This document shows positions 16,950-41,130 of a stretch of DNA of 64,000 bases, piece after piece; position 1 is the first letter of the stretch; each line of letters opens with the position of its first letter. Where the stretch lies: positions 1,116,001 to 1,180,000 of the forward strand of contig CP053448.1 of the NCBI GenBank assembly GCA_013285445.1. The letters run 5' to 3'. A program made the translations under genes and the position numbers. The notes beneath the pieces are model-generated. The model was given only the letters and a program-made list of their open reading frames with translations, did not search any database and was not told where the DNA came from. Source of the DNA: Pseudomonadota bacterium. Lineage in GTDB: Bacteria; Pseudomonadota; Gammaproteobacteria; Xanthomonadales; Wenzhouxiangellaceae.

Positions 16950-18353
16950 ATGACTGACGCTTCACCTGCAGTGGCTGGCTGTGCGGGCCTGGACAAGGTA
17001 TCGACCCGCGTCTACCCGGCCGGCAGTCTCAACGTGCTCTCCCGCGAGGAGGTCGCCCGACTGTCCGATGCCTCCGAGGAGGTCGGTGAACTGCTGCGGC
17101 AGGTGGCGCTTGCGGTACTCAATTCGGGCGAGCAGGGTGACGATGCCGAGCACATGTTCGAGACTTTCAGGGACTTTCGCATCCAGGTTCACCAGGTCAA
17201 TCGGGGCATGCGTATCGATCTGGAGGACGCGCCGGGCTGTGCCTTTGTCGACGGCAAGATGATACGCGGCATACGCGAACTGCTGTCTTCGGTGGTGCGA
17301 GACATTGTCTACTTCCACACCGAGATCCATCCCAGCCCCTACTTCGATCTCGACAGCTCCGAAGGCATCACCAACACGGTCTTCGAGATTCTGCGCAATG
17401 CCCACCTGCTCGATACCGAACTCGAGCCCGGGCTGGTGGTGTGCTGGGGCGGACACTCGATCAGCTCGGAGGAATACGACTACACCAAGGAGGTCGGCTA
17501 TCAGCTCGGGCTGCGCGGCATGGATATCTGCACGGGCTGCGGACCGGGGGCGATGAAGGGACCGATGAAAGGGGCCACCATCGGGCATGCCAAGCAGCGG
17601 ACGCTGCCCGGTCGCTACGTCGGCGTATCCGAGCCCGGCATTATCGCGGCCGAATCACCCAACCCGATCGTGAACCAGCTGGTCATTCTGCCGGATATCG
17701 AAAAGCGTCTCGAGGCGTTCGTCCGGCTGGGGCACGGTATCGTGGTCTTTCCGGGCGGTGTCGGTACCGCCGAAGAGATCCTGTTTCTGCTGGGCGTGTT
17801 GCTGCATCCTTCCAACGCCGACATGCCGTTTCCGCTGGTGTTTTCCGGACCGGAGTCGGCGCGCGACTACTTTGCCGAGATCGACCAGTTCATCGGCCTG
17901 ACGCTCGGGCGCGCCGCACAGGCGCGCTATCGCATCATCATTGCCGATCCGCCCGAAGTCGCGCGCACCATGGCCGCCGGTATGGCGCGCGTGCGCGACT
18001 GGCGGGTAGAGAGCAACGACGCGTTCTATTTCAACTGGCTGCTGAACATCGATCACGGCTTCCAGCAGCCGTTCGAGGCCACCCACGAGGCCATGCGACA
18101 GCTGCCGATCTCGCCGGAGTTGCCGGTGCATGAGCTGGCGGCCAACCTGCGCCGCGTGTTCTCCGGAATCGTGACCGGCAACGTCAAGCCGCAGGGTATC
18201 CAGGCCATCCGTCGTCACGGTCCGTTCGAGATCGAAGGCGATCGCGCGATCATGCGTGCCCTGGACCAGCTGCTGGCGCGGTTCGTCAAACAGCAGCGCA
18301 TGAAGCTGCCCGGCGACAAGCCCTACGAGCCCTGCTACCGCATCGCCGGCTAA
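16950..18353 (+). CDS. ppnN: Pyrimidine/purine nucleotide 5'-monophosphate nucleosidase PpnN (YgdH family)
   Basis: 467 aa from ATG at 16950, preceded by GAGGAA; an upstream in-frame start at 16893 lacks a ribosome site. The LOG/Rossmann core carries GCGPGAMKGPMKGA (about residues 195-208) and FPGGVGTAEE (about 266-275), the nucleotide-binding and catalytic motifs. The N- and C-terminal regions typical of PpnN are present. E. coli PpnN is a little shorter. The enzyme cleaves nucleoside monophosphates to base plus ribose 5-phosphate and is stimulated by (p)ppGpp in E. coli. The stop codon forms part of a CTAA target duplication of a small palindromic element. Confidence 0.9.
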   Translation: MTDASPAVAGCAGLDKVSTRVYPAGSLNVLSREEVARLSDASEEVGELLRQVALAVLNSGEQGDDAEHMFETFRDFRIQVHQVNRGMRIDLEDAPGCAFVDGKMIRGIRELLSSVVRDIVYFHTEIHPSPYFDLDSSEGITNTVFEILRNAHLLDTELEPGLVVCWGGHSISSEEYDYTKEVGYQLGLRGMDICTGCGPGAMKGPMKGATIGHAKQRTLPGRYVGVSEPGIIAAESPNPIVNQLVILPDIEKRLEAFVRLGHGIVVFPGGVGTAEEILFLLGVLLHPSNADMPFPLVFSGPESARDYFAEIDQFIGLTLGRAAQARYRIIIADPPEVARTMAAGMARVRDWRVESNDAFYFNWLLNIDHGFQQPFEATHEAMRQLPISPELPVHELAANLRRVFSGIVTGNVKPQGIQAIRRHGPFEIEGDRAIMRALDQLLARFVKQQRMKLPGDKPYEPCYRIAG

Positions 18354-18404
18354 GGAGCCTCTAATAACTCTGCGCTCCGCGCAGAGTTATTAGAGGCTCC
18401 CTAA
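18350..18404. mobile_element. 47-bp perfect palindrome flanked by CTAA duplications (minimal MITE)
   Basis: Arms at 18354-18375 and 18379-18400 are a perfect 22-bp inverted repeat around a 3-nt loop (TCC). CTAA is present directly on both sides (18350-18353 and 18401-18404). This looks like a 4-bp target duplication of the YTAR type made by IS5-family transposases. The left CTAA includes the ppnN stop TAA. In RNA it would form a very stable hairpin that could act as a terminator or mRNA stabiliser, but no U-tract follows. Confidence 0.65.
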
Positions 18405-18524
18405 CGGCCGGAGACGCAGACCTCCCGCTCAGGTCGTTGCCTTCGCCCGCGATTCCGCAAGCCTTGTCCCTCTCTGCAGCTCCGAACTCCGGCGCATCGG
18501 CGCCGATCAGGCGCCCGTAACCAC

Positions 18525-18553
18525 TTGACACTCGTCACATTCAGGTCTAAGGT
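18525..18553 (+). promoter_or_regulatory. Promoter of the dcw cluster (Pmra)
   Basis: A consensus TTGACA lies at 18525-18530, with TAAGGT at 18548-18553 after a 17-bp spacer. The predicted start point, about 18560, falls inside the MraZ operator repeats. Confidence 0.65.
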
Positions 18554-18587
18554 GGCACGAAGTGGGAATTTGTGGGAAATTGTGGGT
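18553..18587 (+). promoter_or_regulatory. MraZ operator: four TGG-repeats with a 10-bp period
   Basis: TGGCA at 18553, TGGGA at 18563, TGGGA at 18573 and TGGGT at 18583 have an exact 10-bp period, meaning 5-bp spacers. E. coli MraZ binds TGGGN repeats separated by 5 bp upstream of its own gene and represses the cluster. The repeats overlap the -10 end and start point of the promoter, consistent with autorepression. Confidence 0.8.
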
Positions 18588-18613
18588 CCTTAGTGGAAAA
18601 CGAGTGTCGAGCC

Positions 18614-19066
18614 GTGTTTTTTGGTGAAACCGCCATCAATCTGGATGCCAAGGGACGACTGGCGATTCCGACCCGCTACCGGGAGGATCTCCAGGCCGCC
18701 TGCGGAAACCGGCTGGTGCTCACCTACTCGGCGTTCGACGACGGCTGTCTGTGGCTGTATCCGCAGCCTGAATGGGAGCGGGTCCGCGAGCAGGTCATGG
18801 GCCTGTCGACCTTCAATGCCAGTCACCGCAGCCTGCAGCGTCGCCTGGTGGGCTCGGCCACCCTGCTCGAGCTGGACGGCAGTTCCCGTTTGCTGTTGCC
18901 GGCGACGCTCCGCCAGGTGGCCGGACTGGAAAAGCGCGTGGTTTTCATGGGTATGGGCCAGCGCTTCGAAATCTGGGACGAAAGCGTCCTCAACGAGCGT
19001 CGTGCCGTCGAGCAGCGTGAGATCCAGGAGCAGGCGTCCGCCGAAATGGCGCAACTGGTCCTGTAG
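18614..19066 (+). CDS. mraZ: Transcriptional regulator MraZ
   Basis: 150 aa from GTG at 18614, beginning [20 protein letters not shown]. This aligns with the E. coli start region [20 protein letters not shown], so longer versions starting at 18572 are unlikely because they would lie inside the operator. Two SpoVT/AbrB-like DNA-binding halves are present: [14 protein letters not shown] near the start and [14 protein letters not shown] at about residues 88-101. MraZ forms a ring and autorepresses the cluster. The next gene, rsmH, starts 5 nt later. Confidence 0.93.
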
Positions 19067-19071
19067 CGGCC

Positions 19072-20016
19072 ATGTTGAGGAAACCAGGGCATGTGCCGGT
19101 GCTGCTCGGGCCGGCGGTTGACGCATTGAATATTCGTGCCGATGGCATTTATGTCGATGGCACTTACGGTCGGGGCGGGCACAGTGAAGCGATTCTGGCA
19201 CGCCTGGGCAAGGAAGGGCAGCTGGTGGTAATGGACCGAGATCCGCAAGCGATCGCCGATGCACACGCACGGTTTGACGACGACAGCCGCGTGACGGTCT
19301 GCCATGATGATTTCGCCGCGCTGGAGCCCCTCACCCGACGGCTCGGCATTTTTGGTCGCGTCAACGGCGTGCTGCTCGACGTCGGAGTCTCCTCCCCGCA
19401 GCTCGACGATCCGGCACGCGGATTCAGCTTTTCCAGTGACGGCCCGCTCGACATGCGCATGGATCCGGGCAGCGGTGAGTCGGCAGCTGATTGGCTGGCC
19501 CGAGCCGATCAGGAGGAGATCGCGCGGGTGATTCGCGACTACGGCGAGGAACGCCAGGCGCGGCGTATTGCCCGGCGCATTGTCGCCAGGCGAGCCGAGC
19601 GCCCGATCACGCGCACCGCTGAACTGGCAAGCCTGGTGGCCGGCGCGGTGAAATCGGGCAGCCGCGATATCCATCCGGCCACGCGAACCTTCCAGGCACT
19701 GCGTATTCAGGTCAACGAAGAGTTGAGCGCACTTGAGCGCGCGCTCGAAGCGGCCATCGACCTGCTGGCTGTGGCCGGTCGACTGGTGGTCATCAGCTTC
19801 CATTCGCTGGAGGACCGGCTGGTCAAGCAGGCGCTGGTTCGTGCCTCCAGCCCACCGCCGGCCAGTCGACGCTTGCCGGTGGCCTCCGCGTTCCGGCCGC
19901 GATTGCGTCTGGTGGGCCGGCTGCTTAGGCCCGACCCGGCCGAGATCGAAAGCAACCCGCGTGCCCGCAGCGCCCGCATGCGGGTGGCCGAGAAACTGCC
20001 CGGGGCTGCATCATGA
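19072..20016 (+). CDS. rsmH: 16S rRNA (cytosine(1402)-N4)-methyltransferase RsmH
   Basis: 314 aa starting [19 protein letters not shown]. It carries the glycine-rich SAM site [16 protein letters not shown] and the later [20 protein letters not shown] motif diagnostic of RsmH/MraW. It methylates N4 of C1402 in the ribosomal P site. It overlaps ftsL by 4 nt (ATGA), so translation of the two is probably coupled. Confidence 0.96.
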
Positions 20017-20279
20017 TGCGCTGGCTTGCCGCCTTGCTGTTGCTCGCGGCGGTGCTGGCCAGTGCCGTTGCAGTGATCGTGCTCAGGCACGAATCCCGTC
20101 TGCTCTTCGTTGCCCTGCAGGAGGCCGAACAGCAGCGCGATGCCGCCCGCGTCGAGTGGAGCCGGCTTCAGCTCGAGCAGGCCTGGCTGGCCGAGGCCGG
20201 TCGGGTCGAGCGGGAGGCCCGGGAGGCGCTGGATATGCGCGTGCCCGAGCAGATTCGCCTGCTGGTGGAAGCGCCATGA
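20013..20279 (+). CDS. ftsL: Cell division protein FtsL
   Basis: 88 aa. One N-terminal membrane segment (about residues 4-25, [20 protein letters not shown]) is followed by a periplasmic coiled coil ([20 protein letters not shown]). Short length, topology and position between rsmH and ftsI identify it; FtsL sequences are poorly conserved. FtsL forms the FtsQLB complex that activates FtsWI. It overlaps both neighbours by 4 nt (ATGA). Confidence 0.92.
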
Positions 20280-21976
20280 GTCGCGATCCGGCAAGCAGTG
20301 GCGGCAACATCAGGGTTTGGCTGACTGCCGGAGTCATGCTGCTTGCGGCCCTCATGCTGACCGCGCAGGCGGTCAATCTGCAGGTCATGGAGGCGGAGTT
20401 TCTGCAAAGCCAGGGAGAAGCACGTTTCCTGCGGGACGTCGCCATTCCGACCGTGCGCGGCAATATCCTGGACCGCAACGGTGAGCCGCTGGCGGTATCG
20501 ACTCCGGTCGAATCAGTCTGGGCGCACCCGGGTGAGCTGCTGCAGGCGGCTGATCGTATCCCGATGCTGGCCGGGCTGCTCGAGACCGATGCCGAAAACC
20601 TGCAGCGTCGTCTGACCCAGCGTGCCGGGCGCGAGTTCGTCTGGTTGCGTCGGCAGATCAATCCGGATCTGGCCGAACGCATCCGCCAGCTCGAGATTCC
20701 GGGTGTCTTTCTAGAGCGCGAGTACCGGCGGTTCTATCCGACCGGCGAAGTCAGTGCACAGGTGCTCGGCTTTACCAATATCGACGATGTCGGTCAGGAG
20801 GGTCTGGAGCTGGCCTACAACAACTGGCTGCAGGGCGAGGCCGGTGCGAAGCGGGTCATCAAGGATCGCTTCGGGCGGGTCGTCCAGAACGTCGAGCTGA
20901 TTCGCGAGGCCAGACCTGGGCGTGATCTTCGGTTGACGCTGGATCGGCGCCTGCAGTACCAGGCTTTTCGCGACCTCAAGGCGACCATTCTGGAGTTCGG
21001 TGCACGCTCGGGCTCGGTGGTCGTGCTTGACGTGACCAGTGGCGAGATTCTCGCCATGGTCAACTATCCCTCCTACAATCCGAACGCCCCGACCCGCGCT
21101 GCGTCGGATGGATTGCGCAACCGCGCTTTGACCGACGTGCTCGAGCCCGGTTCGGTGATCAAGCCGTTTGCGGTTGCCGCAGCCATGGAGGCCGGTATCG
21201 CGCACCCGGACATGCGCATTGACACCTCGCCCGGCGTGATGACGGTCTCGGGTCATGACGTGCGCGACGTGCGCGATTTTGGTGAATTGACCCTCGAGCA
21301 GATTCTGACCAAGTCGTCCAATGTCGGCGTGGTTCAGCTGGTGCTGTCGATGGATGCCCGCCATCTCTGGGGTGTCTACACGCGCTTCGGATTCGGTTCG
21401 GTGACCGGCACGGGGTTCCCCGGCGAGTCGGCCGGCGTGCTGCGTGACTACGATCGCTGGCGCAAGCTGGAGCAGGCCACCCTGGCCTATGGCTACGGGC
21501 TGTCGGTTACGCCGCTGCAGCTGGCGCGCGCGATGGCGGCGATCGCCAGCGGCGGCAAGCTGCATCAGGCCACGTTTATCGCCGACAGCGACAATCCGCC
21601 GCACTCCGTGCTCGATCCGGATCTGGCCGCCAAACTGATGGCGATGCTCGAGACCGTGACCGGACCGGAAGGGACCGGCCAGGCCGCCCGGGTGGACGGC
21701 TATCGCGTGGCCGGCAAGACCGGTACGTCGCGCAAGGTCGGCGTCGGCGGTTACAGTGATCGCTACGTGGCCAGCTTTGCCGGTTTCGCGCCGGCCTCGC
21801 GCCCGCGCCTGGCAGCGGTGGTGGTGGTCAACGATCCGGCCGGCGAGGCCTACTACGGGGGCCAGGTTGCCGCACCGCTGTTTGCCCGCGTCATGGCCGC
21901 CGGGCTGCGACTGTTCGATGTACCGCCGGACGATCCCGGCCTGCTGATGGCCCGGCTCGAGGATGAGCATGAATAG
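20276..21976 (+). CDS. ftsI: Division-specific peptidoglycan transpeptidase FtsI (PBP3)
   Basis: 566 aa from ATG at 20276; any upstream start would run into ftsL and rsmH. One membrane anchor is at about residues 14-35. The penicillin-binding dimerisation domain includes VRGNILDRNGEPLAVSTPVE. The catalytic SVIK is at 293-296 (Ser293 nucleophile), SSN at 347-349 and KTGT at 481-484. It cross-links septal peptidoglycan as partner of FtsW. The end overlaps murE by 14 nt. Confidence 0.97.
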   Translation: MSRDPASSGGNIRVWLTAGVMLLAALMLTAQAVNLQVMEAEFLQSQGEARFLRDVAIPTVRGNILDRNGEPLAVSTPVESVWAHPGELLQAADRIPMLAGLLETDAENLQRRLTQRAGREFVWLRRQINPDLAERIRQLEIPGVFLEREYRRFYPTGEVSAQVLGFTNIDDVGQEGLELAYNNWLQGEAGAKRVIKDRFGRVVQNVELIREARPGRDLRLTLDRRLQYQAFRDLKATILEFGARSGSVVVLDVTSGEILAMVNYPSYNPNAPTRAASDGLRNRALTDVLEPGSVIKPFAVAAAMEAGIAHPDMRIDTSPGVMTVSGHDVRDVRDFGELTLEQILTKSSNVGVVQLVLSMDARHLWGVYTRFGFGSVTGTGFPGESAGVLRDYDRWRKLEQATLAYGYGLSVTPLQLARAMAAIASGGKLHQATFIADSDNPPHSVLDPDLAAKLMAMLETVTGPEGTGQAARVDGYRVAGKTGTSRKVGVGGYSDRYVASFAGFAPASRPRLAAVVVVNDPAGEAYYGGQVAAPLFARVMAAGLRLFDVPPDDPGLLMARLEDEHE

Positions 21977-23426
21977 GCCTGCTATAACGCTGGATCGCTT
22001 GCTTGCCGGCATCGGTGTGTCAGCGCCTGAAATCCCCATCCAGGGACTGGCGCTGGATTCGAGACGCCTGGCGCCGGGTGATGCCTTTGTCGCGGTAGCC
22101 GGGCAGATGACGCACGGTCTGTCGTTTGCTGATCGTGCCGCTGCTGCCGGGGCGCTGGCAGTGCTGCACGATAGCGCCGATCCGCCGCCGGCAGCGCTGC
22201 CTGTCCCGTCCGTGGCGATACCGCAACTGGCGCAGCACCTGCCGAACCTGGCCCGACGCATGTGGTCTGACCCGGGCGCTGCGCTTGACCTGATTGCCGT
22301 GACCGGGACCAACGGCAAGACGTCGATTGCCTGGCTGCTGGCGCAGGCACTCGAAGGCGCCATGATCGGCACCCTCGGCTGTGGTCGTCCCGGCGGACTC
22401 ATGCCGGCCACCCACACCACACCGGATATCTTCAGCGTCTATCGCTTGCTCGATGACTTTCGCCGGCAGGGCATTCAGACCGTGGTCATGGAGGCCTCGT
22501 CGCATGCGTTGGCGCAGGGCCGGCTTGACGGGTTGGTGTTCAGCAGCGTCATTTTCACCACGCTGGGTCACGACCACCTGGACTACCATGCCGATCGTGC
22601 CGCGTACGGTGAAGCCAAGGCGCGACTGTTTTTCGAGCATCCAAGCCGGCGCCAGCTGATCAACCTGGACGATGCCTTTGGCCAGGAGCTGGCCAGGCGC
22701 TTGCCGGATGCAGACGGCCTGATCGGCTACAGTCTGTCCGGCCACGCCGAGGCGCGGGTTCGCGGCCGAACCGTTGCCACGGCTCCGGGCGGGCTCAAGG
22801 TGGCTCTGGAACTTCAGGACGGCAGCCTGCAGGCCGACACTGAGCTGGTCGGGCAGGTCAATGCCTGGAACGTGCTGGTGGTCGCCGCCGAACTCGAAGC
22901 GCGCGGTTTCAGCCCGGCTCAAATCGGTGAGCGCCTGACCCGCCTGCGTCCGGTGCCGGGGCGCATGCAGCCGGTGCGCGGGCCGGACGGCCGGCTGGCG
23001 ATCATCGATTATGCCCATACGCCCGACGCGCTTGAGAGCGCGCTGGCCAGCGTGCGCCAGCTTGCGGCTAACGAGCTATGGTGCGTGTTTGGCTGCGGCG
23101 GTGAGCGTGACCGCGGCAAGCGGGCGATGATGGGGCGAATTGCCGAGCGGGCCGCCGATCGGGTGATTCTGACCGACGACAATCCGCGCCACGAAGACGG
23201 TACCGCAATCGTGCGCGACATCCAGTCGGGTATGCAGCGACCGCAGCGCGCGCTCGTCATTCGCGACCGCGCGCGCGCGATCCGCCACGCCATAGCAGCC
23301 TGCCAGCCCGAAGATGTCGTGCTGATTGCCGGCAAGGGACACGAAAACGAGCAGATCGCGGGTGATGCCCGGCTGCCGTTTGACGATGTCTGTGTCGCGC
23401 GCGAGGCGCTGGAGGTGGCGGCATGA
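21963..23426 (+). CDS. murE: UDP-MurNAc-tripeptide synthetase MurE
   Basis: 487 aa. The ATP-binding loop TGTNGKTS is at about 114-121. DNPR at 406-409 is the signature of enzymes adding meso-diaminopimelate, so the cell wall is of the usual Gram-negative type. It adds mDAP to UDP-MurNAc-L-Ala-D-Glu in the cytoplasm. ATG at 21963 and ATG at 21969 are both possible starts; both overlap the end of ftsI. The stop overlaps murF (ATGA). Confidence 0.96.
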   Translation: MSMNRPAITLDRLLAGIGVSAPEIPIQGLALDSRRLAPGDAFVAVAGQMTHGLSFADRAAAAGALAVLHDSADPPPAALPVPSVAIPQLAQHLPNLARRMWSDPGAALDLIAVTGTNGKTSIAWLLAQALEGAMIGTLGCGRPGGLMPATHTTPDIFSVYRLLDDFRRQGIQTVVMEASSHALAQGRLDGLVFSSVIFTTLGHDHLDYHADRAAYGEAKARLFFEHPSRRQLINLDDAFGQELARRLPDADGLIGYSLSGHAEARVRGRTVATAPGGLKVALELQDGSLQADTELVGQVNAWNVLVVAAELEARGFSPAQIGERLTRLRPVPGRMQPVRGPDGRLAIIDYAHTPDALESALASVRQLAANELWCVFGCGGERDRGKRAMMGRIAERAADRVILTDDNPRHEDGTAIVRDIQSGMQRPQRALVIRDRARAIRHAIAACQPEDVVLIAGKGHENEQIAGDARLPFDDVCVAREALEVAA

Positions 23427-24763
23427 TGCGCACGTCGCTGAAGCGTCTGGGCGTACTGACCAACGGCGATCTGCGTGACGGCAATCCGGAGGTTGTCGGC
23501 ATGAGTCACGATGCGCGCCGAATCGAGCCGGGCAATCTGTTTTGTGCCTTGCCCGGTCATCACCGGGATGGGCACGAGTTCATCGCCCAGGCGCGCGCTT
23601 CCGGGGCGGCCGCCGCCCTGGTCGCGCGCCCGGTCAACGATGCGTTGCCGCAGCTGATCGTGGCCGACGTGCTCCAGGCCATGGGGGTGATCGCTCGCGC
23701 CTGGCGTGAGCAGATGCCGGCTACCGTGGTGGGTGTGACCGGCAGCAACGGCAAGACCACGGTCAAGGAGATGCTGGCGGCCGTTCTGGCCACGCAAGGG
23801 CCGACGCTGGCCACCCAGGGCAACTACAACAACGAGATCGGTGTGCCGCTCACGCTGGTGCGGCTGCAGCGTGAACACGACTATGCGGTTGTCGAAATGG
23901 GCTGCGGTCAGCCCGGCGACATTCACTATCTGGCCGACATGGCCCGCCCGGAGATTGGCATCGTCACCAATGCCGGACCGGCACACCTTGAACGACTCGG
24001 GAGCGTTGAAGGTGTCGCCCGCACCAAGGGTGAGTTGTTTTCGGCCCTGCCCGCTTCCGGCCTGGCAGTGATCAATGCCGATGACGACTACAGCGATTTG
24101 TGGCTCGATCTGGCCGATCACTGTCGCACGATGACTTTCGGCCTGGGGCCGGAGGCCATGGTGCGCGGGCGTTTCACCGGCGGCCAGGCCGAGATCGACA
24201 CGCCGATCGGTTCGTTTTCCTTTACCCCGGCGCTGCCCGGCCGGCACAACCTCTGCAACGCGCTGGCTGCCACTGCCGCCGCGGTGGCGCTGGAGGTGCC
24301 TCTGCCTGTCATTGGCGAGGCCCTGGCGGGAATGCGCAGCCTGCCCGGGCGATTGCAGGCGCATCACCACGCCGAGGGGTGGTGCTTGATCGATGACACC
24401 TATAACGCCAATCCCGCCTCGCTCTATGCTGCGCTGCAGGTGCTGGCCGGGCACGGCGGCGAGTGCTGGCTGGTGCTGGGCGACATGGCCGAGCTTGGAG
24501 GGGGCAGCGCCAAGCTGCACGCCGAAATCGGTCAGGCAGCGCTCGACTGGGGGGTGTCACGTCTGGTCACGGTCGGTGAGCACAGCCAGTCGGCCAGCAC
24601 GACCTTCGGTCGGGGCGGGCGGCATTTCGAGGATATTGACTCGCTGGTCGCATGGCTCCATGGCGAGCTGCACGCCGGGGTGACCTGCCTGGTCAAGGGC
24701 TCGCGCAGCATGGGCATGGAACGGGTCGTCGAGGCACTGATGCGGGAGCCGCGGACATGCTGA
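23423..24763 (+). CDS. murF: UDP-MurNAc-pentapeptide synthetase MurF
   Basis: 446 aa with the Mur ligase ATP-binding loop [14 protein letters not shown] near residues 107-120, a [15 protein letters not shown] motif and [10 protein letters not shown], all typical of MurF. It adds D-Ala-D-Ala to the UDP-MurNAc-tripeptide. GAGGTGG precedes the ATG. The last 7 nt overlap mraY. Confidence 0.96.
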
Positions 24764-25833
24764 CCTGGATGTTCGAACATTGGCTGGCCGGGGATGTGGC
24801 CCTGTTCGGCTATATCACGTTCCGCACCGTCATGGCCGCGCTCAGCGCCATGATCGTATCGCTGGTCATCGGCCCGTTTTTCATTCGCCACATGACCGAG
24901 CGCCAGATTGGCCAGCCGATTCGCAAGCTCGGGCCGGAATCACACCTGACCAAGGCCGGCACACCGACCATGGGCGGGACGCTGATCCTGATCTCGCTGA
25001 TCCTGGGCACGCTGCTGTGGGCCGACCTGACCAACCGCTATATCTGGACCGTGCTGTTTGTGACGATGGCCTTCGGTGCCATCGGTTTTGTCGATGACTG
25101 GCGCAAGCTGAAGTACCGCGACAGCCGCGGACTGCCGGCGCGCTGGAAGTACCTGCTGCAGTCGCTGGCGGCGCTGGCCGTTGGACTGTTTCTCTACCTC
25201 AGTGCCGATGTGCCGGCCAATACCCAGCTGTTTGTGCCGTTTTTCAAGGATGTGGCCATTCCACTCGGGACGGGTTTCGTGGTGCTGGCCTACTTTGTGG
25301 TGGTGGGCTCATCGAATGCCGTCAACCTGACCGACGGCCTGGATGGGCTGGCGATCATGCCGGCCGTGTTCGTTGCCGCCGGGCTCGGGATTTTTGCCTA
25401 CGCCACCGGGCATACCGTGTTTGCCGATTACCTGGCCATGCCCTACATTCCCGGGGTTGGCGAGCTGGCCATCTTCTGCGCCGCGCTGGCCGGTGCCGGG
25501 CTCGGGTTCCTGTGGTTCAATACCTATCCCGCGCAGGTGTTCATGGGCGATGTCGGTGCGCTGGCCGTCGGTGCGGCGCTGGGCGTTGTGGCCGTCGCCG
25601 TGCGCCAGGAAATCGTGTTCATGGTCATGGCGGGGATCTTCGTCATCGAGACCCTGTCGGTCATTCTCCAGGTCGCTTCATTCAAACTGACCGGTCGGCG
25701 CATTTTTCGCATGGCACCGATCCATCATCATTTCGAGCTCAAGGGCTGGCCGGAACCGAAGGTGATCGTGCGCTTCTGGATCATCGCCGTGATGCTGGTG
25801 CTGGCCAGCCTTGCAACCATGAAGATCCGGTGA
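24757..25833 (+). CDS. mraY: Phospho-MurNAc-pentapeptide translocase MraY
   Basis: 358 aa from ATG at 24757, about ten membrane segments. Family motifs: [20 protein letters not shown], and the catalytic [11 protein letters not shown]; the C-terminal [20 protein letters not shown] is diagnostic. It makes lipid I on the inner membrane. The next gene is ftsW, 5 nt later; murD, usually found here, is missing. Confidence 0.97.
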
Positions 25834-25838
25834 CCGCC

Positions 25839-32366: not shown

Positions 32367-32582
32367 TGAAAGGACCCGCGATTCGAAAGACCGGATCAGG
32401 TTGCGGCAGGTCGCCGCTCCAGTGGGTTTTGCCCCGTCCGATGTACCTCGGGCAAGGCGCGGGAGCGGCACAAAGCGTCCGTCAAGAAGGCGCGTGCCGC
32501 CATCCCTTGGTAAGGTAAGAAGAGCATCCCGTCTCTGGCGGGACATTGTTGATCGTCATGGCGAGCGAAAGGAGAGACTGTT
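32367..32582 (+). other. ftsA-ftsZ intergenic region
   Basis: A 216-bp gap, the first sizeable one since mraZ. A small hairpin (CCCGTC-TCTGG-CGGGAC-like, about 32528-32545) and an AAAGGAGAG ribosome site (about 32568-32576) are visible. ftsZ in many proteobacteria has extra promoters here; none could be assigned with confidence. Confidence 0.35.
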
Positions 32583-33752
32583 ATGCCTTTTGAACTGATC
32601 GAAAACTACACGCCCGGCGCAACCATCAAGGTTGTCGGGATCGGCGGCGGTGGCGGCAATGCCGTCAGCCAGATGGTCCAGTCGGCCATCGAAGGCGTCG
32701 AATTTGTCTGTATCAATACCGATTCACAGGCGCTGCGCAATTTTGCCGGCAAGACCACGCTGCAGATTGGCGGCAGCGTGACCAAGGGCCTGGGCGCCGG
32801 AGCCAATCCGGAGGTCGGCCGTCAGGCGGCGCTGGAAGACCGCGATCGAATCAGCGAAATGCTCGACGGCTGCGACATGGTGTTCATCACCGCCGGCATG
32901 GGTGGTGGTACCGGCACCGGCGCTGCGCCCGTTGTGGCCCAGACGGCCAAGGAAATGGGCATCCTCACGGTTGCGGTGGTCACCAAACCGTTCCCGTTCG
33001 AGGGGCAGCGAAGAATGGGCGTGGCTCAGCAGGGCATTGATGAGCTTGCCCACCACGTCGATTCGCTGATCACGATTCCCAACGCCAAGTTGCTCAGCGT
33101 TCTGGGTTCCGAGATCACGCTGCTTGATGCGTTCAAGTCGGCCAACCAGGTGTTGTCGGGAGCCGTTCAGGGCATCGCCGAGCTGATCACCCGGCCCGGG
33201 CTGATTAACGTCGACTTTGCCGACGTGCGTACCGTCATGAGCGAAATGGGTATGGCGATGATGGGTTCGGGGACTTCGCGCGGAGAAGATCGCGCACTGA
33301 TGGCCGCGCAGTCGGCGATCGGGTCGCCGCTGCTCGAGGATGTCGACCTCAACGGTGCCTGTGGCATTCTGGTCAATGTCACCGCTGGCATGAACCTGAG
33401 CATGAAGGAATTCGAGGAAGTCGGCACGACCGTTGCCGACCTGGCCAGTGAAGACGCCACGGTGGTGGTCGGCACGGTCATCGATCCCGACATGACCGAT
33501 GATCTTCGGGTGACGGTGGTGGCCACCGGTCTCGGGACCCGGCAGGCGAAAAGCCAGGACAAGCCGATGAAGATCGTGCGCACGGGCACCGACAATCGGC
33601 CCGCTTTCCGGGCGACGGAGGACGAATCCGCCGCGCGAGAACGGGGCGATCGTGACGCCGGTAATGGCGGCGAAAGCCGCAAATTGTTCGGCGAACAGAA
33701 GGAGCTCGACTACCTCGACATCCCGGCGTTTCTGCGCAACCAGGCCGACTGA
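32583..33752 (+). CDS. ftsZ: Cell division GTPase FtsZ
   Basis: 389 aa. The tubulin signature GGGTGTG is at 107-113, the N-terminal [13 protein letters not shown] loop is present, and the C-terminal conserved peptide [15 protein letters not shown] binds FtsA and ZipA. It polymerises into the division ring. A strong ribosome site, AAAGGAGAG, precedes the ATG. Confidence 0.98.
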
Positions 33753-33805
33753 GCGTTTGGCGGCGGACCGGTGACGGGGCTCGATCAGCCCGTCAGCGGG
33801 GCATC

Positions 33806-33834
33806 CACAGCCCCCGACTCGCCCGGGGGCTGTG
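33806..33834 (+). terminator. GC-rich hairpin after ftsZ
   Basis: A perfect 11-bp stem, CACAGCCCCCG (33806-33816) with CGGGGGCTGTG (33824-33834), and a 7-nt loop. No T-run follows, so it may be only a partial or Rho-assisted terminator, or an mRNA end stabiliser, between ftsZ and lpxC. Confidence 0.5.
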
Positions 33835-33935
33835 CCGGCAGGAGCATGACCGGTCCGTGACGCCGACTGTTGCTTCTGAGCAACATATGTGGTCATTTTG
33901 TTGAAAAATTGCTTTTTTGCCACGCCTGGGTGTGC

Positions 33936-33941
33936 TATGCT
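33936..33941 (+). promoter_or_regulatory. Extended -10 promoter of lpxC
   Basis: TATGCT preceded by TGTGC gives an extended -10 element. A T-rich segment (33910-33920) lies at the -35 distance. It is 32 nt upstream of the GTG start of lpxC. Confidence 0.5.
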
Positions 33942-33973
33942 CCGCGGCGTTAACCAGCAAATGGCCACCACCA

Positions 33974-34888
33974 GTGATCAGACAAAGAACACTCAAGAAC
34001 GTCATTCGGGCCACCGGCGTCGGTTTGCATACGGGCGACAAGGTGCTGATGACCTTGCGGCCGGCACCAGCCAATCGCGGCATCGTGTTTCGTCGCGTCG
34101 ATCTCGATCCGGTCGTTGAGATTGCCGCCGACCCGCAACTGGTTCGGGATACCGCCCTGTCAACCACGCTGGTCAATGATGACGGGGTTCGTGTGGCGAC
34201 GATCGAACATCTGATGTCGGCGCTGGCCGGCCTGGGTATCGACAATCTCTATGTCGACCTCAGCGCATCGGAAGTGCCGATCATGGACGGCAGTGCCGGT
34301 CCGTTTGCGTTTCTGGTCCAGTCCGCCGGAATCGCAGAGCAGAATCTGCCCAAACGCTTCATCCGTATTCGCAAGGCAGTCGAGGTGCGCGACGAGGATC
34401 GCTGGGTGCGCTTCGAGCCACATGAAGGCTTTCAGGTCAGGTTCACGATCGAGTTCGACCATCCGGTCATCCGCTCGCACTCGTGCAGCGCCGATCTGGA
34501 TTTTTCGACCACCTCCTATCTCAAGGAGGTGGCGCGAGCGCGAACCTTCGGTTTCATGCGCGATATCGAGTTCCTGCGCGGGCGCAACCTGGCTCTGGGC
34601 GGCAGTCTCGACAACGCGGTCGTGCTGGACGATTTCCGGATTCTCAATGAGCACGGCCTGCGCTACGAGGACGAGTTCGTCAAGCACAAGGTGCTCGACG
34701 CGATCGGCGACCTTTACCTGCTTGGCCGCAACCCCATCGGTCGCTTCATCGGACACAAGTCCGGCCATGAGCTGAACAATCTGCTCGTGCGCGAGCTGCT
34801 GGCCGATGAAAAGGCCTGGGAAGAAGTGACCTACGAAGAGGCTGATCTGGCGCCGATCTCCTACGTGCAGCCTGCCCAGGCGATCTGA
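33974..34888 (+). CDS. lpxC: UDP-3-O-acyl-N-acetylglucosamine deacetylase LpxC
   Basis: 304 aa from GTG at 33974. With this start the zinc ligands fall at His79 (TIEHLMSAL), His238 and Asp242 (HKVLDAIGD), the same numbers as in E. coli LpxC, which strongly supports the start codon. It catalyses the committed step of lipid A synthesis. No clear ribosome-binding site is seen before the GTG. It lies between ftsZ and dciA/secA as in other gammaproteobacteria. Confidence 0.96.
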
Positions 34889-34982
34889 TCGCCCGCGCTT
34901 GGCCTGGTGGCTGCACGCGGCGCGTGCACCTGCCGCGCGTATCGCGTTGCGGTTGGTCAGCGATCCGCCATCACCGGCTTGA

Positions 34983-35303
34983 TCAGGGCAATGGCATGAC
35001 GACCACGCGCGTGCGCACCGGATCCCGTTCGAGCTCTTGCCCCACGACTGTGCGCAGCTGATCGGCCAGCACCCGTGCCCGGCTCGCCCAGGCCGGGCTG
35101 GCAGCAGCCAGCACCAGCGTGTCTTCTTCGATACAGGCGAGTCGAATATGGCCGCGCATGGATGCCGGCAGTGACTGCTGCAGGCGCTCGTCGAGTTGCC
35201 CGAAGGCGCTCGCGGCAGCCAGCAGCCGCCGCAGCGGGCGGTTGGTTCCGACAATCTGCTGAATGTCGCGTTCGGCACGGCCCTTCATCATGACTCTCGG
35301 CAT
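34983..35303 (-). CDS. DciA-like (DUF721) replicative helicase loader
   Basis: 106 aa from ATG at 35303 (later ATGs at 35291 and 35288 also possible). DUF721 features: an N-terminal helix with LRRLLAAASAFGQLDERLQQ, then HIRLACIEEDTLVLAAASPA and WASRARVLADQLRTVV. DciA is the DnaB loader of bacteria lacking DnaC. Genes of this family lie between lpxC and secA in Pseudomonas and relatives, matching this position. It is divergent from secA. Confidence 0.75.
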   Translation of the reverse strand: MPRVMMKGRAERDIQQIVGTNRPLRRLLAAASAFGQLDERLQQSLPASMRGHIRLACIEEDTLVLAAASPAWASRARVLADQLRTVVGQELERDPVRTRVVVMPLP

Positions 35304-35463
35304 GGTTCGGACTCTACTGTAGCGCATCGCGGCCGGCACCGGGCCCGACGCTGGTTGCGACGGGGCGGGGTGCAGTAAAATGGCAGGCTGTGCTTGCAGG
35401 CTCCGGTTGCCGCCCCCAACTTGACCCAAGCCCGAACCCGAATCTTCGACCAACGGATTACCC

Positions 35464-38187
35464 ATGCTCAAATCCCTGATCACCAAGGTCGTGGGCAGCC
35501 GCAATGAGCGGCTGATCAAGCGGCTCTACAAGGATGTCGAGGCGATCAACGCACTCGAATCCGAGTTCAAGAAGCTCAGCGACGAAGCGCTGAAGGCCAG
35601 GACCGCCGAATTGCGGCGGCGACATGCTGACGGTGCCAGTCTCGACGAGCTGCTGCCCGAGGCCTTTGCCGCGGTCCGCGAGGCCTCGGTGAGGATGCTC
35701 GGAATGCGCCACTTCGACGTTCAGCTGATCGGCGGCATGGTGCTGCACCAGGGCAAGATTGCCGAAATGAAGACCGGTGAGGGCAAGACCCTGATGGCGA
35801 CCCTGGCCGTTTATCTCAACGCCATCGCCGACAAGGGTGTGCATGTGGTCACCGTCAACGATTATCTGGCCCGGCGCGATGCCGACTGGATGAGGCCGAT
35901 TTATTCGGCGCTCGGTTTGACGGTCGGCGTCTCGGTGCCGGGCATGGCGCCGGACGACAAGCGTCAAGCCTATGCCGCCGATGTCACCTACGGCACCAAC
36001 AACGAGTTCGGTTTCGACTACCTCCGTGACAACATGGCCTTCTCGCTCGAACAGCGGGTGCAGCGCGGCCGCAGCTTCGCCATCGTCGACGAGGTCGACT
36101 CGATTCTGATCGATGAGGCCAGAACGCCGTTGATCATTTCGGGACCGACCGACGAGGGCCCGGACATCTACGTCAGGATGAATCGCATCGTGCCCCAGCT
36201 GGAGCCACAGCGCGAAGAGGACGGTCCGGGTGATTTCACCATCGACGAGAAGACCAAACAGGTCTACCTGACTGAAGACGGCATGGCCAAGGTCGAGCGC
36301 CTGCTTGCCGATGCCGGCATGATCGAAGCCGAAGACAGCCTGTACAACGCCCACAATCTCGGCTTGATGCATACGCTCAATGCCTCTCTGCGCGCCCATC
36401 ACCTGTACCAGAAGGACGTTGACTACATCGTGCGTGACGGGGAGATTGTCATCGTCGACGAGTTCACCGGCCGCACGCTGCCGGGGCGGCGCTGGTCGGA
36501 GGGTCTGCACCAGGCAGTCGAGGCCAAGGAGGGCGTGCCGATCCAGCGCGAGAACCAGACGCTGGCCTCGATCACCTTCCAGAATTATTTCCGGCTCTAC
36601 GACAAGCTCTCCGGCATGACCGGCACGGCCGACACCGAGGCCTACGAGTTCCAGACCATCTACGGCCTGGAAGTGGTCGTCATACCGACGCACAAGCCGA
36701 TGATCCGGGATGATCGCGCAGACCTGGTATTCCTGACCAAGGAGGAGAAGTTCGCCGCCATCGTCGAAGACATCCGCGAGCGTGTGGCCCAGGGTCAGCC
36801 GGTTCTGGTGGGGACGACCTCGATCGAGAACTCGGAGCTGATTTCACGCCAGCTGAAGAAGGCAAAAATCCGGCACGAAGTGCTCAATGCCAAGCAACAC
36901 GAGCGCGAGGCGCACATTATCGCGCAGGCCGGGCGTCCGGGGGCGGTCACCATTGCCACCAACATGGCCGGGCGCGGCACCGACATCGTGCTCGGCGGCA
37001 ACCTCGATGCCGAGCTGGCCGAGCTGGGCGAGGACGCCAGCGAGGCGCAGCGCCTCAAGGTGCGCGAGGAGTGGCAGAAGCGGCATGATGAAGTCGTGGC
37101 GGCCGGCGGGTTGCACATCATCGGCACCGAGCGACACGAATCGCGACGTATCGACAACCAGCTCAGGGGCCGTGCCGGCCGTCAGGGCGACCCGGGGTCG
37201 AGCCGCTTTTACCTGTCGCTTGAAGACAACCTGATGCGGATCTTCGCCTCCGAGCGCATGGGTTCGATGATGCAGAAGCTCGGCATGAGAGACGGCGAGG
37301 CGATCGAGCATCCGTGGGTGACCCGGGCGATCGAGAATGCTCAGCGCAAGGTCGAGGCGCACAATTTCGACCTCAGAAAGCACCTGCTGGATTTCGATGA
37401 CGTGGCCAACGATCAGCGGCGCGTGATTTACGCCCAGCGCAACGAGCTGATGGAGGCCGAGGACATCAAGGACACAATCGACGCCATTCGTGCCGAAGTT
37501 TTCGATAGCCTGATCAGCCAGTTCATCCCGCCCGAGTCGATCGACGAAATGTGGGATCCGGAGGGGCTGGAAAAGGCCCTGGAAGGCGAGTTCGGTATCA
37601 GTGTGCCGGTCCAGCGCTGGCTGGACGAGGACGAAGATCTGAACGAGGCCGCGCTGCGCAATCGGATCATGGAGCGAGTCGAGGCGCACTATCAGGCCAA
37701 GGAAGAAATGACCGGATCGTCGATCATGCGGCGGTTCGAAAAAGCCCTGATGCTGTCGATTCTCGACCAACAGTGGAAAGAGCATCTGGCGAGCATGGAC
37801 TACCTGCGGCGCGGCATCAACCTGCGCAGCTTCGCGCAGAAGAAGCCGCAGCAGGAATTCAAGCGCGAAGGGTTCGAGATGTTCACCGCCATGCTCGATA
37901 CGATGAAGCATGAGGTGATGAAGGCGCTGGCGCGGGTGCAGATTCGAAGCCAGGGTGATGTTCAGGCCGTCGACGAACAGCGCCAGCGCGAAACGCCGAT
38001 GCAGTTCCGGCACGCCGAGGCGCAGTCGGCAACCGCCGGCGGTGCCTCGGGCGGCCACGGACCGGCTCAGCCCGCAGCACCGCAGCCGGAGACCTTCGTT
38101 CGGGAGGGTCGCAAGGTGGGCCGCAACGAGCCGTGCCCCTGCGGATCAGGCAAGAAATACAAGCACTGTCACGGCAAGCTTGCCTAG
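35464..38187 (+). CDS. secA: Preprotein translocase ATPase SecA
   Basis: 907 aa, full length. The Walker A is [13 protein letters not shown] (about residues 100-112), the DEAD-like box is [20 protein letters not shown], the helicase C-terminal motif is [14 protein letters not shown] and the pre-protein cross-linking domain is present. The C-terminus ends in the zinc-binding SecB-docking motif [14 protein letters not shown]. It drives protein export through SecYEG. Confidence 0.98.
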
Positions 38188-38197
38188 CCCGCGGGAA

Positions 38198-39163
38198 ATG
38201 CCCGAAACCTGCGTGCGGGTCGCTGCCGGCATCCTGCGGGACACCAACGGCCGCGTGCTCCTGTCGCAGCGACTGCCCGGCCGGCATCTCGGGGGTACCT
38301 GGGAGTTTCCGGGCGGCAAGTGCGAGGCCGGTGAGACCCCGCGCGCCTGCCTGGTCCGCGAGCTGCACGAGGAACTGGGCATCGAGGCCCGATCGGTCCG
38401 TCCCTGGTTGACCCTGACCCATCATTATCCAGACCGCAGCGTACGCCTGATGCTCTACGAGGTGCCCCACTGGGCCGGCGCGCCGCGTGGCTGCGAAGGT
38501 CAGGCGCTGCGCTGGCGCAAGCCCGAAGACATGACCGCCCTTGCGATGCCCGAGGCCGATCGGCCGATCGTTCGGACCCTGCAGTGCGACGGCCGCTACG
38601 CCATCACGCCGCCGCTGATGGATGGCGGCGACGACCGGCGGCTACTCGCCTGGACGCGCGCACGCCTGGACGAGGGCATCGGGCTGCTGCAGCTGCGCGC
38701 GCCCGCGCTGGATACGGTCGAACTGGAGCGCCTGGCCGGCGCGTTCAACCGCCTGGTTCGGTCGCATGCCGGCGCGCGCTGGCTGCTTTACGGCAAGCCC
38801 GCTCAGGCCGAGGCCTTCGGTGCCGATGGGGTGCATCTGTCGACCGCCTGCCTGCGCCGAGTGAACTCGCGCGTCCTGCCTGACGATCGTCTTGTGACCG
38901 CCTCATGCCGTGACCCCGGTGACCTGCAACGGGCCGGTGAGGTCGGGGCGGATTTCGTTACTGTGCCAGCGGTGCCGCCGGGCAAGGCGCGTTCCTCCTC
39001 TGGCTCCTCTGGCTGGCGGAGACTGGCGTGGTTGTGCCGACATTCGATGTGTCCCGTTTACGTGCTTGATGCCGTCACGCCAGCCGCCCTGAGACGAGCA
39101 CGCCGCCTGGGCGCATTCGGGGTGGCCGGTTGCTTCGGCCTGTCGCCGTCGGAGGCGTCGTGA
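38198..39163 (+). CDS. Nudix hydrolase fused to a TenI/ThiE-like domain
   Basis: 321 aa from ATG at 38198. The N-terminal half is a MutT-type Nudix domain with the G-x5-E-x7-REL-x-EE-x-G box at about residues 37-59. The C-terminal half (about 150-315) is a thiamine-phosphate-synthase-like TIM barrel (ADGVHLSTACLRRV; VTASCRDPGDLQRA). This fusion is common next to secA in gammaproteobacteria and is thought to sanitise oxidised dGTP; the role of the barrel is unknown. It overlaps the next gene by 4 nt (GTGA). Confidence 0.88.
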   Translation: MPETCVRVAAGILRDTNGRVLLSQRLPGRHLGGTWEFPGGKCEAGETPRACLVRELHEELGIEARSVRPWLTLTHHYPDRSVRLMLYEVPHWAGAPRGCEGQALRWRKPEDMTALAMPEADRPIVRTLQCDGRYAITPPLMDGGDDRRLLAWTRARLDEGIGLLQLRAPALDTVELERLAGAFNRLVRSHAGARWLLYGKPAQAEAFGADGVHLSTACLRRVNSRVLPDDRLVTASCRDPGDLQRAGEVGADFVTVPAVPPGKARSSSGSSGWRRLAWLCRHSMCPVYVLDAVTPAALRRARRLGAFGVAGCFGLSPSEAS

Positions 39164-39870
39164 AGCGCATTGCCCTGCCGCTGAAGGCGCGCTCCCTGCC
39201 CGGTCCGGGACACGCGGAAGTCTGGCTGACCGACCTGACCGCTCTGCCGATTGATTTCAGTGAGCCGCGGCACACGCGACGCCAGGCCCTTGCCCGGCGC
39301 CGCTTGCGCCAGCAGTTCATCCTGCGCCTGCTGCTCGGCGCCTACCTGGGCTGCCCGGGCAAGGATGTCGAGCTGGTGCGCACTGCGCGCGGTAAGCCGG
39401 TGCTTGCCGGGCGGTGGGCCAACAGCCCACTGGCGTTCAGTGTGTCGAACGCTGATGAGTGGCTTGCGGTGGCGGTTGCGCGCGGTGCCGCCGTTGGCGT
39501 TGATATCGAGATTCAACGACCACTGCCGCGCGCAGTGCGTCTGGCGCGGCGATTCCTGTCGGTGCCGGAGGCCGAGTGGCTGAACACGCTCGATGAGCCG
39601 CTGCGCTCGCGGCAGTTCCTGCGTCAGTGGACCGCACGCGAAGCGCTGGTCAAGGCCCGGGGCAGCGCGCTGGCGGTTTCGCTGGGCGCGCTCGAGCTGG
39701 ACTGGCAGCCGGCTCGAATCAGACGATTGCCGCCGGACTGGCCCGGGACCGGGCGCTGGACGCTCTCGCCGCTGTTGCTGCCGGCCAGACTGATCGGCAG
39801 CCTGGCCCTCGATCAACCCGACCACCGGGCCGAGCTGCTGTGGTTGACCGTTGACCTCGGGCGTGACTGA
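39160..39870 (+). CDS. 4'-phosphopantetheinyl transferase, Sfp type
   Basis: 236 aa from GTG at 39160. It carries the superfamily motifs AVGVDIEI (about residues 110-117, Mg-binding Asp and Glu) and FLRQWTAREALVKARG (about 152-167, the WxxKEAxxK type). It would transfer phosphopantetheine from CoA to carrier proteins. The genomic neighbourhood gives no dedicated carrier protein, so the substrate is open. Translation is probably coupled to the Nudix gene. Confidence 0.88.
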   Translation: MKRIALPLKARSLPGPGHAEVWLTDLTALPIDFSEPRHTRRQALARRRLRQQFILRLLLGAYLGCPGKDVELVRTARGKPVLAGRWANSPLAFSVSNADEWLAVAVARGAAVGVDIEIQRPLPRAVRLARRFLSVPEAEWLNTLDEPLRSRQFLRQWTAREALVKARGSALAVSLGALELDWQPARIRRLPPDWPGTGRWTLSPLLLPARLIGSLALDQPDHRAELLWLTVDLGRD

Positions 39871-40072
39871 ACGCGAGTTCTCAGCAGCGGTTGGTGTCGA
39901 GCATTGCGTTGCTGCTTGTGGTGGCCCCGCCGACGCCTGACCCGCGGTCCCGGTACCGCTTCGTGCAGTCGCGTGAAATCGTCCATCCGGGTTGGTCGCC
40001 GGTTCGGCTTCCGGCGCCGGTCAGGTAGCATGTGCGGATGCTGCGCCGCTTGAGACCAGACTGGAGGACACG

Positions 40073-40117
40073 ATGACCATGCCGCGAACCTGTCGATACC
40101 CGGACACCGGAGACTGA
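40073..40117 (+). CDS. Possible 14-residue leader peptide before the creatininase gene
   Basis: ATG at 40073 follows CTGGAGGACACG, a strong ribosome site, and encodes MTMPRTCRYPDTGD before a TGA at 40115-40117, 2 nt before the next ATG. It may be a translational-coupling peptide or chance. No attenuator structure was seen. The 249-bp gap 39871-40119 holds nothing else recognisable. Confidence 0.25.
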   Translation: MTMPRTCRYPDTGD

Positions 40118-40119
40118 AC

Positions 40120-40860
40120 ATGCTGCTGCAGCAAGCAACCTGGCCAGAGGTGGCGACCTATCTTGAACGATCAACCGGGCTGGTGATTCCCATTGGTTCG
40201 ACCGAGCAGCACGGACCGACCGGCCTGATCGGCACCGACGCGATCTGTCCCGAAGTGATCGCCAGGGGCCTGGCCGCGGAAGGTATCCTGGTGGCGCCGA
40301 CGCTGAGTGTCGGGATGGCCCAGCATCACCTCGGTTTCCCCGGTTCGATCACGCTTCGGCCCGCCACCCTGCTGGCGGTCGTTCGTGATGTGGTCACTTC
40401 ACTGGCCGTTCACGGCTTCACCCACTTCTATTTTCTCAACGGCCATGGCGGAAACACCGCCACCGTTCATGCCGCCTTTTCCGAGATCTGGGCTGACGCG
40501 AGCCTGTCAGGCAGCGCTTCCGGTTTGCGCATGAGGCTGGGCAACTGGTTCGCCGGCCGCCGGGTCCAGGCCCTGGCGCGGGAGCTCTACGGCGATGCCG
40601 ACGGCAGCCACGCCACGGCCTCGGAGATTGCTCTGACCTGGTATGCGCATCCCGAGCAGGTTCGCAGCGACACGCTCGATCCGGTTCGCGCTCCACAGGG
40701 CCCCATCCGTGACGCGGATGACTACAGGAAGCGTTTTCCCGACGGCCGCATTGGCTCGGAACCGCACCGGGCCACGCCCGCGCACGGCAAACGCTTCTAC
40801 GAGGCGGGTCTAGCCGACGCCCTGGACGACTATCGGCGATTTATCGAGGATCATCACTAG
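40120..40860 (+). CDS. Creatininase-family amidohydrolase
   Basis: 246 aa. Metal-site motifs of the creatininase family are present: STEQHGPTGLIGTD (Glu29, His31, Asp40), GHGGN (108-112) and the downstream SHATASEIALTW. The family includes creatininase, mycofactocin MftE and riboflavin-pathway ArfB-type enzymes; no mycofactocin neighbours are seen, so the substrate is unknown. The stop TAG is part of a CTAG target duplication of the adjacent palindromic element. Confidence 0.85.
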   Translation: MLLQQATWPEVATYLERSTGLVIPIGSTEQHGPTGLIGTDAICPEVIARGLAAEGILVAPTLSVGMAQHHLGFPGSITLRPATLLAVVRDVVTSLAVHGFTHFYFLNGHGGNTATVHAAFSEIWADASLSGSASGLRMRLGNWFAGRRVQALARELYGDADGSHATASEIALTWYAHPEQVRSDTLDPVRAPQGPIRDADDYRKRFPDGRIGSEPHRATPAHGKRFYEAGLADALDDYRRFIEDHH

Positions 40861-41025
40861 CCCGCATTATTCATGAATCGCCGCGATGATTGCGCAGGGG
40901 ATTGTTCGCACAGCGGATTTTCCGACCGAGCGGAATACCAGGCTGTATTTCCGAGGGAGGAAAATCCGCTGTGCGGGCAAGGCGCAAGCAAGGGCGCGAG
41001 TGAATTCATGAATAATGCGGGCTAG
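40857..41025. mobile_element. 161-bp nested palindromic element with CTAG duplications (MITE-like)
   Basis: The element spans 40861-41021, flanked directly by CTAG (40857-40860 and 41022-41025). The outer terminal inverted repeats are perfect over 18 bp (40861-40878 and 41004-41021); with flanks they reach 24 bp. A second perfect 17-bp inverted repeat lies inside (40907-40923 and 40959-40975). It has no coding capacity. The left CTAG contains the creatininase stop TAG. Terminal repeats plus a 4-bp YTAR duplication suggest mobilisation by a DDE transposase; the family is not settled (IS5 and IS1380 types both give 4-bp duplications). Confidence 0.7.
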
Positions 41026-41130
41026 TGGTCCTTCAACCTGATCATTGAGGATTCAGCGTTCCTGTGGCGCTTCGCTGCCTTGCTGTCGAGATGCACAGCG
41101 CGGCTGAATGCAATCTACATTGCTGCCGGG

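Follow-up and report, generated by a model that had tools for sequence, protein, structure and literature searches.

Small CTAG-flanked elements of four families frequently occupy the stop codons of genes, probably through target specificity and selection

The window, which is the whole 64,000-nucleotide stretch of DNA that was analysed, carries two small insertions, elements A and B, each at the 3' end of a gene. The genes, the elements and their direct repeats are located as follows.

16971..18353, + strand: gene for a PpnN-like nucleotide 5'-monophosphate nucleosidase; the open reading frame is listed from 16893, and the stop codon TAA lies inside the left CTAA.
18350..18353, no strand: left direct repeat CTAA of element A, containing the stop codon of the ppnN-like gene.
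18354..18400, no strand: element A in its short palindromic form of 47 bases, a perfect palindrome; the family also has a 273-base form.
18401..18404, no strand: right direct repeat CTAA of element A.
40120..40860, + strand: creatininase-like gene; the stop codon TAG lies inside the left CTAG.
40857..40860, no strand: left direct repeat CTAG of element B, containing the stop codon of the creatininase-like gene.
40861..41021, + strand: element B, a 161-base miniature element of the IS1380 type with the 18-base terminal inverted repeat CCCGCATTATTCATGAAT.
41022..41025, no strand: right direct repeat CTAG of element B, which doubles as the left CTAG of a family D remnant.
41026..41079, + strand: end fragment of family D with the terminal repeat TGGTCCTTCAACCTGAT; the right limit was set by eye.

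Judged by their coordinates, both insertions are as an earlier note on this DNA had claimed: the direct repeats CTAA and CTAG contain the stop codons TAA and TAG, respectively. In the PpnN-like protein, the PpnN_C domain reaches residue 458 of 460. The D end stands directly 3' of the right CTAG of element B, and about 54 bases resemble family D by eye. Because this end abuts the CTAG, the stop codon of the creatininase-like gene was probably struck twice, B having entered a CTAG that an earlier D insertion had left there.

The home genome (G000) is a single contig of 3,494,817 bases. Searches run there gave five families, all of them small and non-coding.

Family A: ends GGAGCCTCTGAACAACTCTG; a 273-base form and palindromic forms of 42-50 bases; direct repeats CTAA, TTAG, TTAT and CAAG.
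Family B: 161 bases; mostly flanked by CTAG.
Family C: TGGGCCATGCGGCTAAT; about 262, 158 and 32 bases.
Family D: 263 bases.
Family E: TGTACCCCGTCACTCAT; about 264 bases.

Elements A and B, both of which had been described as YTAR-type, belong to different families, and YTAR suits A better than B. Compared with the IS5-type target YTAR, the A repeats fit in the case of CTAA and TTAG but not of TTAT and CAAG, and several A blocks are recognisable at just one end. Among 20 two-ended B copies, 16 had CTAG on both sides, 3 had CTAG on one side and 1 had CTAA on both sides. The search patterns for C, D and E included the CTAG, with at most three mismatches, so that copies of these families without CTAG may have been missed. 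Neighbouring elements frequently adjoin with a common CTAG, as B, C and D do at 739490-740192. The stretch 2216371-2218458 was considered as an autonomous B copy and rejected, as a group II intron interrupts a B element there.

Gene ends were tallied in the stretches around every copy found, ten arbitrary stretches and the window, where a custom script called 876 genes in 1.127 Mb; the background is therefore a third of the genome, mainly around elements. There were 71 blocks in total, 55 with families B-E and 16 that were A or A-led. In 29 of the 55 B-E blocks a called gene ended with the duplicated TAG of an outer repeat, and the other 26 lay away from stops. CTAG was scarce, with only 227 free sites in the 1.127 Mb, and these comprised 25 stop codons, 63 coding sites and 139 others (odds ratio [OR] 9.0 for the excess of stops at B-E blocks, p = 1.3e-10). 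All 29 stop blocks held when the tally was restricted to strong gene calls. Gene ends no more than 60 bases from an outer repeat were distributed as follows: 34 exactly on the TAG, 5 at +16, inside the element, and 13 upstream. A single tail-to-tail CTAG served as the stop of two convergent genes at five occupied sites and at one free site. By block content, stops were found in 9/15 blocks of B, 8/12 of C, 1/5 of D, 3/11 of E and 8/12 compound blocks; D and E together were less biased than B and C (4/16 vs 17/27, p = 0.027), a contrast that was picked post hoc. Counted by hand, B showed no clear bias in its direction with respect to the gene.

Family A behaved differently. Only 1 of the 16 A or A-led blocks, namely that of the window itself, was on a stop codon, against 67 of 1021 free YTAR sites, and A was therefore rejected as part of the stop bias. 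It looks like a separate YTAR-type family, and its presence at a stop in the window seems coincidental. The earlier note had found two of two suggestive of a YTAR-type target enriched at stop codons, and had proposed a tabulation of all copies in the genome. That tabulation bore out the enrichment for the CTAG families B-E but not for family A, so the two of two was partly luck. Block 2770813 is A-led and ends in a B fragment; its reassignment would change the counts to 29/56 and 1/15. At 2413319, the TAG of the right-hand gene adjoins the palindrome, and this case was left out of the count since the flanks differ.

An insertion inside a gene splits the gene call, which makes a plain tally blind to coding hits. 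The elements were therefore removed by script: the element and one repeat were deleted, and genes were called again at 46 two-ended blocks, 9 one-ended blocks being excluded. The emptied blocks comprised 25 stop, 17 intergenic and 4 coding sites, compared with 25, 139 and 63 of the 227 free sites. The excess of stops persisted (OR 9.6, p = 6e-10), and coding sites were depleted (4/46 vs 63/227, OR 0.25, p = 0.005). Of the four coding sites, three were 7-10 bases before the gene end and one was 194 bases before it. Each of the five double stops was recovered at its own single emptied site. The site at 1040786 changed from stop to intergenic in this control only because the script retained a mutated left repeat. 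A count of 0/55 insertions in called genes was dropped, since split gene calls hide such insertions. The proposal that the insertions are almost neutral does not hold for all of them, as four emptied sites lie within a called gene.

Is the excess created by the choice of target or by the loss of other insertions? A plain comparison with non-coding free sites (29:26 vs 25:139, OR 6.2, p = 1.2e-7) was judged inflated, because 18 of these free sites fall within the rRNA region and 87 are remote from any strong gene call. A tight comparison, in which intergenic sites were required to have strong gene calls within 500 bases on both sides, leaves out those sites as well as 8 blocks, and gave 29 blocks at stops and 18 between genes, where the free sites numbered 25 and 35, respectively (OR 2.3, p = 0.05). 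Occupied stops were more often convergent than free ones (convergent to co-directional, 18:11 vs 6:18, OR 4.9, p = 0.012). When gene pairs of one orientation were compared, with small cells in each case, the excess was gone: stop to intergenic sites were 18:6 occupied vs 6:2 free for convergent pairs (OR 1.0) and 11:8 vs 18:15 for co-directional pairs (OR 1.15). Specificity for CTAG together with the loss of harmful insertions thus suffices, and no active targeting is needed.

The occupied sites give the impression of having been filtered, not sought out. Because gene interiors lack insertions, occupied stops show the convergent excess and the stop excess disappears in orientation-matched pairs, we infer that selection, not target preference, creates the bias. 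It is unlikely that the transposases, or the state of the DNA at transcribed gene ends, favour stop-codon CTAG beyond what selection leaves. Such targeting would fit the OR of 2.3 that persists against the tight intergenic sites, and also an estimated occupancy of 27% for CTAG stops versus about 5-6% for co-directional or divergent and 10% for convergent intergenic sites, but the 27% contrast is inflated by the same rRNA-region and remote free sites, here classed as intergenic, and the same-orientation ratios argue against it. A modest true preference for stops may nevertheless exist, as the free convergent intergenic sites number only two.

Both window elements are predicted to fold strongly, element A with its repeats at -42.3 kcal/mol (z -10.4) and element B at -98.8 kcal/mol (z -11.6). 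Neither A nor B has a terminator-type T tract or a terminator-like site, the sole hit being at 41142-41156, outside both. The suggestion that the genes gain a new 3' hairpin is accordingly supported as far as the predicted folds go, but not in the form of an intrinsic terminator. These hairpins might be of use to the host, for example by forming the 3' ends of mRNAs or by acting as barriers that separate convergent genes, and be kept at stops for that reason; the strong folds and the excess at convergent stops would agree with this. We consider it quite improbable, because the T tract of an intrinsic terminator is absent at both elements, harm done by insertions between co-directional genes would produce the convergent excess just as well, and the orthologous genes manage without an element.

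The occupied stop codons are ancestral in the cases tested. Ten proteins ending at occupied stops were compared with NCBIfam models, and six end at, or within two positions of, the model end: PurH, HslU and Prs reach the last model position, and MurD, NtrC and rubredoxin come within two positions of it, rubredoxin with a score below the cut-off. GAPDH extends 8 residues past its model, and three of the ten proteins have no close full-length NCBIfam match. Among same-genus orthologues with a readable end, the 24 of the creatininase-like gene end no more than 7 residues from the corresponding position, and the 21 of the ppnN-like gene no more than 2 residues from it. Neither A nor B was found in the bases read past the orthologue stops, where one contig (L218) ends 2 bases after the CTAG. 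A natural empty site is provided by an IS110-type transposase gene, one copy of which has a family E element at its CTAG stop while the second copy is empty; once the element and one CTAG are removed, 184 of 185 bases are identical. The claim that insertion leaves the protein unchanged therefore holds in the tested cases by all three kinds of evidence, and the protein stays intact there because the target and the amber codon are the same letters.

It is very improbable that the elements instead carry the stop, the CTAG being their own and the genes being truncated at a new TAG near their ends: CTAG does stand at nearly every end found, the five gene ends at +16 lie inside an element, and the terminal repeats of B, C and D give a stop in another frame, but this explanation is refuted for the tested cases by the empty copy with its single CTAG and the same stop, by the B copy with CTAA on both sides, whose target was duplicated rather than carried, and by element-free orthologues that end at nearly the same residue, and the six full-length conserved proteins also speak against it.

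The B end pattern was present in 10 of 101 genomes searched, G000 included. In four other genomes we tallied those B elements that have one or both CTAG copies intact; these are draft assemblies in which many contigs end near the element, and part of the places were fetched. Stops accounted for 10/24 B elements vs 13/119 free sites in G076 (p = 0.0008; p = 0.052 with non-coding free sites only), 7/20 vs 7/162 in G051 (p = 0.0001; p = 0.001) and 6/21 vs 4/40 in G034 (p = 0.08; p = 0.15). No bias was seen in G088, with 3/22 vs 13/69 (p = 0.36 with non-coding free sites only). The four genomes pooled gave 26/87 against 37/262 non-coding free sites (OR 2.6, p = 0.002). Beyond G000, two genomes (G076 and G051) thus show the stop bias clearly, G034 shows it weakly and G088 lacks it.

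A simple mechanism would account for the preserved gene ends. A staggered cut at the target followed by fill-in is an established step for elements of this kind. CTAG is its own reverse complement and would read TAG on either strand, in the phase xxC-TAG. If it is cut with a stagger and filled in, a full CTAG would be left on each flank and the end of the gene would be preserved; for a convergent pair ending on one common CTAG, each gene would have its own stop after insertion. Of this, the sequence itself shows the duplication, five convergent pairs and one natural empty site. In the neighbourhood of strong gene calls, 25 of 60 free non-coding CTAG sites are stop codons. As CTAG sites are few, this means that harmless targets are few and that stops form a major class of them. 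We therefore consider it likely, with a probability of roughly 80%, that families B-E sit on stop codons because the transposases that mobilise them need CTAG and because selection on the host purges most insertions that damage genes. A further-reaching reading makes CTAG a safe harbour: by settling on gene ends, the elements would have split tail-to-tail stops and spread hairpin 3' ends, and the transposases would favour CTAG for this reason. We regard it as rather doubtful.

Miniature elements are usually termed intergenic, whereas about half of the sites of four families here are the stop codon itself. The likely combination of CTAG specificity and purging would provide a countable rule for the persistence of CTAG-specific elements in genomes that avoid CTAG, and from it one would expect other elements with targets of this kind to be biased in a similar way. 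A common tail-to-tail stop can, moreover, split into two gene ends in one step. Among the literature matches listed, titles and abstract openings contained no account of the reuse of stop codons via target duplication, which is no proof of novelty.

Candidates for the enzyme that moves B come from the IS1380 family. PF13701 (IS1380) matches occurred in 2 of 8 genomes, G000 and G066, and in G066 B-like ends adjoin 3 of the 5 matches. A transposase-fragment scan of named genomes, with a query from a PF13701-matching locus, found 19 loci. Of 13 examined, four (L195, L196, L197 and L200) are units of 1.69-1.70 kb with B-like ends, which differ from those of B by 1-4 in 17 positions, CTAG on both sides and open reading frames of 457-555 amino acids. 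The likeness of B to the IS1380 family therefore lies in the B-like ends and CTAG direct repeats around these transposase units of other genomes. The difference is that B has 161 bases and codes for nothing, and that the IS1380-type genes of G000, three long ones and one fragment, have no B-type ends in the 1.5 kb flanks of the long genes. The matching ends and target suggest that an IS1380-type transposase moves B, and the partner that moved it is either absent from the G000 assembly or was overlooked there.

The IS481 element of Bordetella also targets CTAG, and its ends begin with TG. The ends of C, D and E likewise begin with TG and are flanked by CTAG, a resemblance that we take only as a possible lead to a link with IS481.

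The nearest described element seen for A is MITEPsy1 of Pseudomonas syringae, which, in the portion of the report available, has 100 bases, 18-base terminal repeats and a 4-base duplication of CTAG or YTAA (PMC3189936). One of its terminal repeats has CCTCTGAA in common with A. It differs in its 100 bases from the 42-50-base palindromes and the 273-base form of A, and the same portion of the report mentions no bias to stop codons (PMC3189936). RUP and Correia elements have TA at their ends or target, according to the accessible part of the source, and resemble the families described here in being non-coding, with terminal inverted repeats, target duplications and hairpin RNA (PMC2229807). Unlike RUP and Correia elements as presented in that part, the target here is the palindrome CTAG, and half of the sites are stop codons (PMC2229807).

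The terminal repeats of three families of miniature elements that are mostly flanked by CTAG direct repeats, families B, C, and D, each carry, in a second reading frame, a stop codon that lies 16 b past the CTAG, and five gene ends use this stop. At a locus in another genome (L200), where an IS1380-type unit with B-like ends is bordered by CTAG on both sides (L200:2903-4601), the flanking long open frames of 329 and 251 codons both terminate at the unit's CTAG. This arrangement suggests that the IS1380-type unit itself may have been placed on a common tail-to-tail stop.

CTAG sites free of an element were scarce in the 1.127 Mb of sequence assessed from the window's own genome (G000), numbering 227 compared with 3744 expected by base composition and 930 expected by trinucleotides. 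In one case, a compound block of C and D elements broke a short gene with a match to PF10116 (G000:C1:1606402-1606938), at a position 194 b upstream of the gene's end.

Elements of different families also abut with a common CTAG at G000:C1:739490-740192, 149180-149722, and 2862828-2863597, as would be expected if every insertion creates a fresh CTAG target. Some elements are in turn interrupted by other mobile DNA. A group II intron, which encodes a reverse transcriptase and maturase gene, splits a B element within its terminal repeat (G000:C1:2216371-2218458). Two elements of the YTAR-type family A (G000:C1:2831415 and 3390157) harbor an IS110-type element at the identical terminal-repeat position, and in one of these two IS110-type elements the stop codon of the transposase is occupied by family E.
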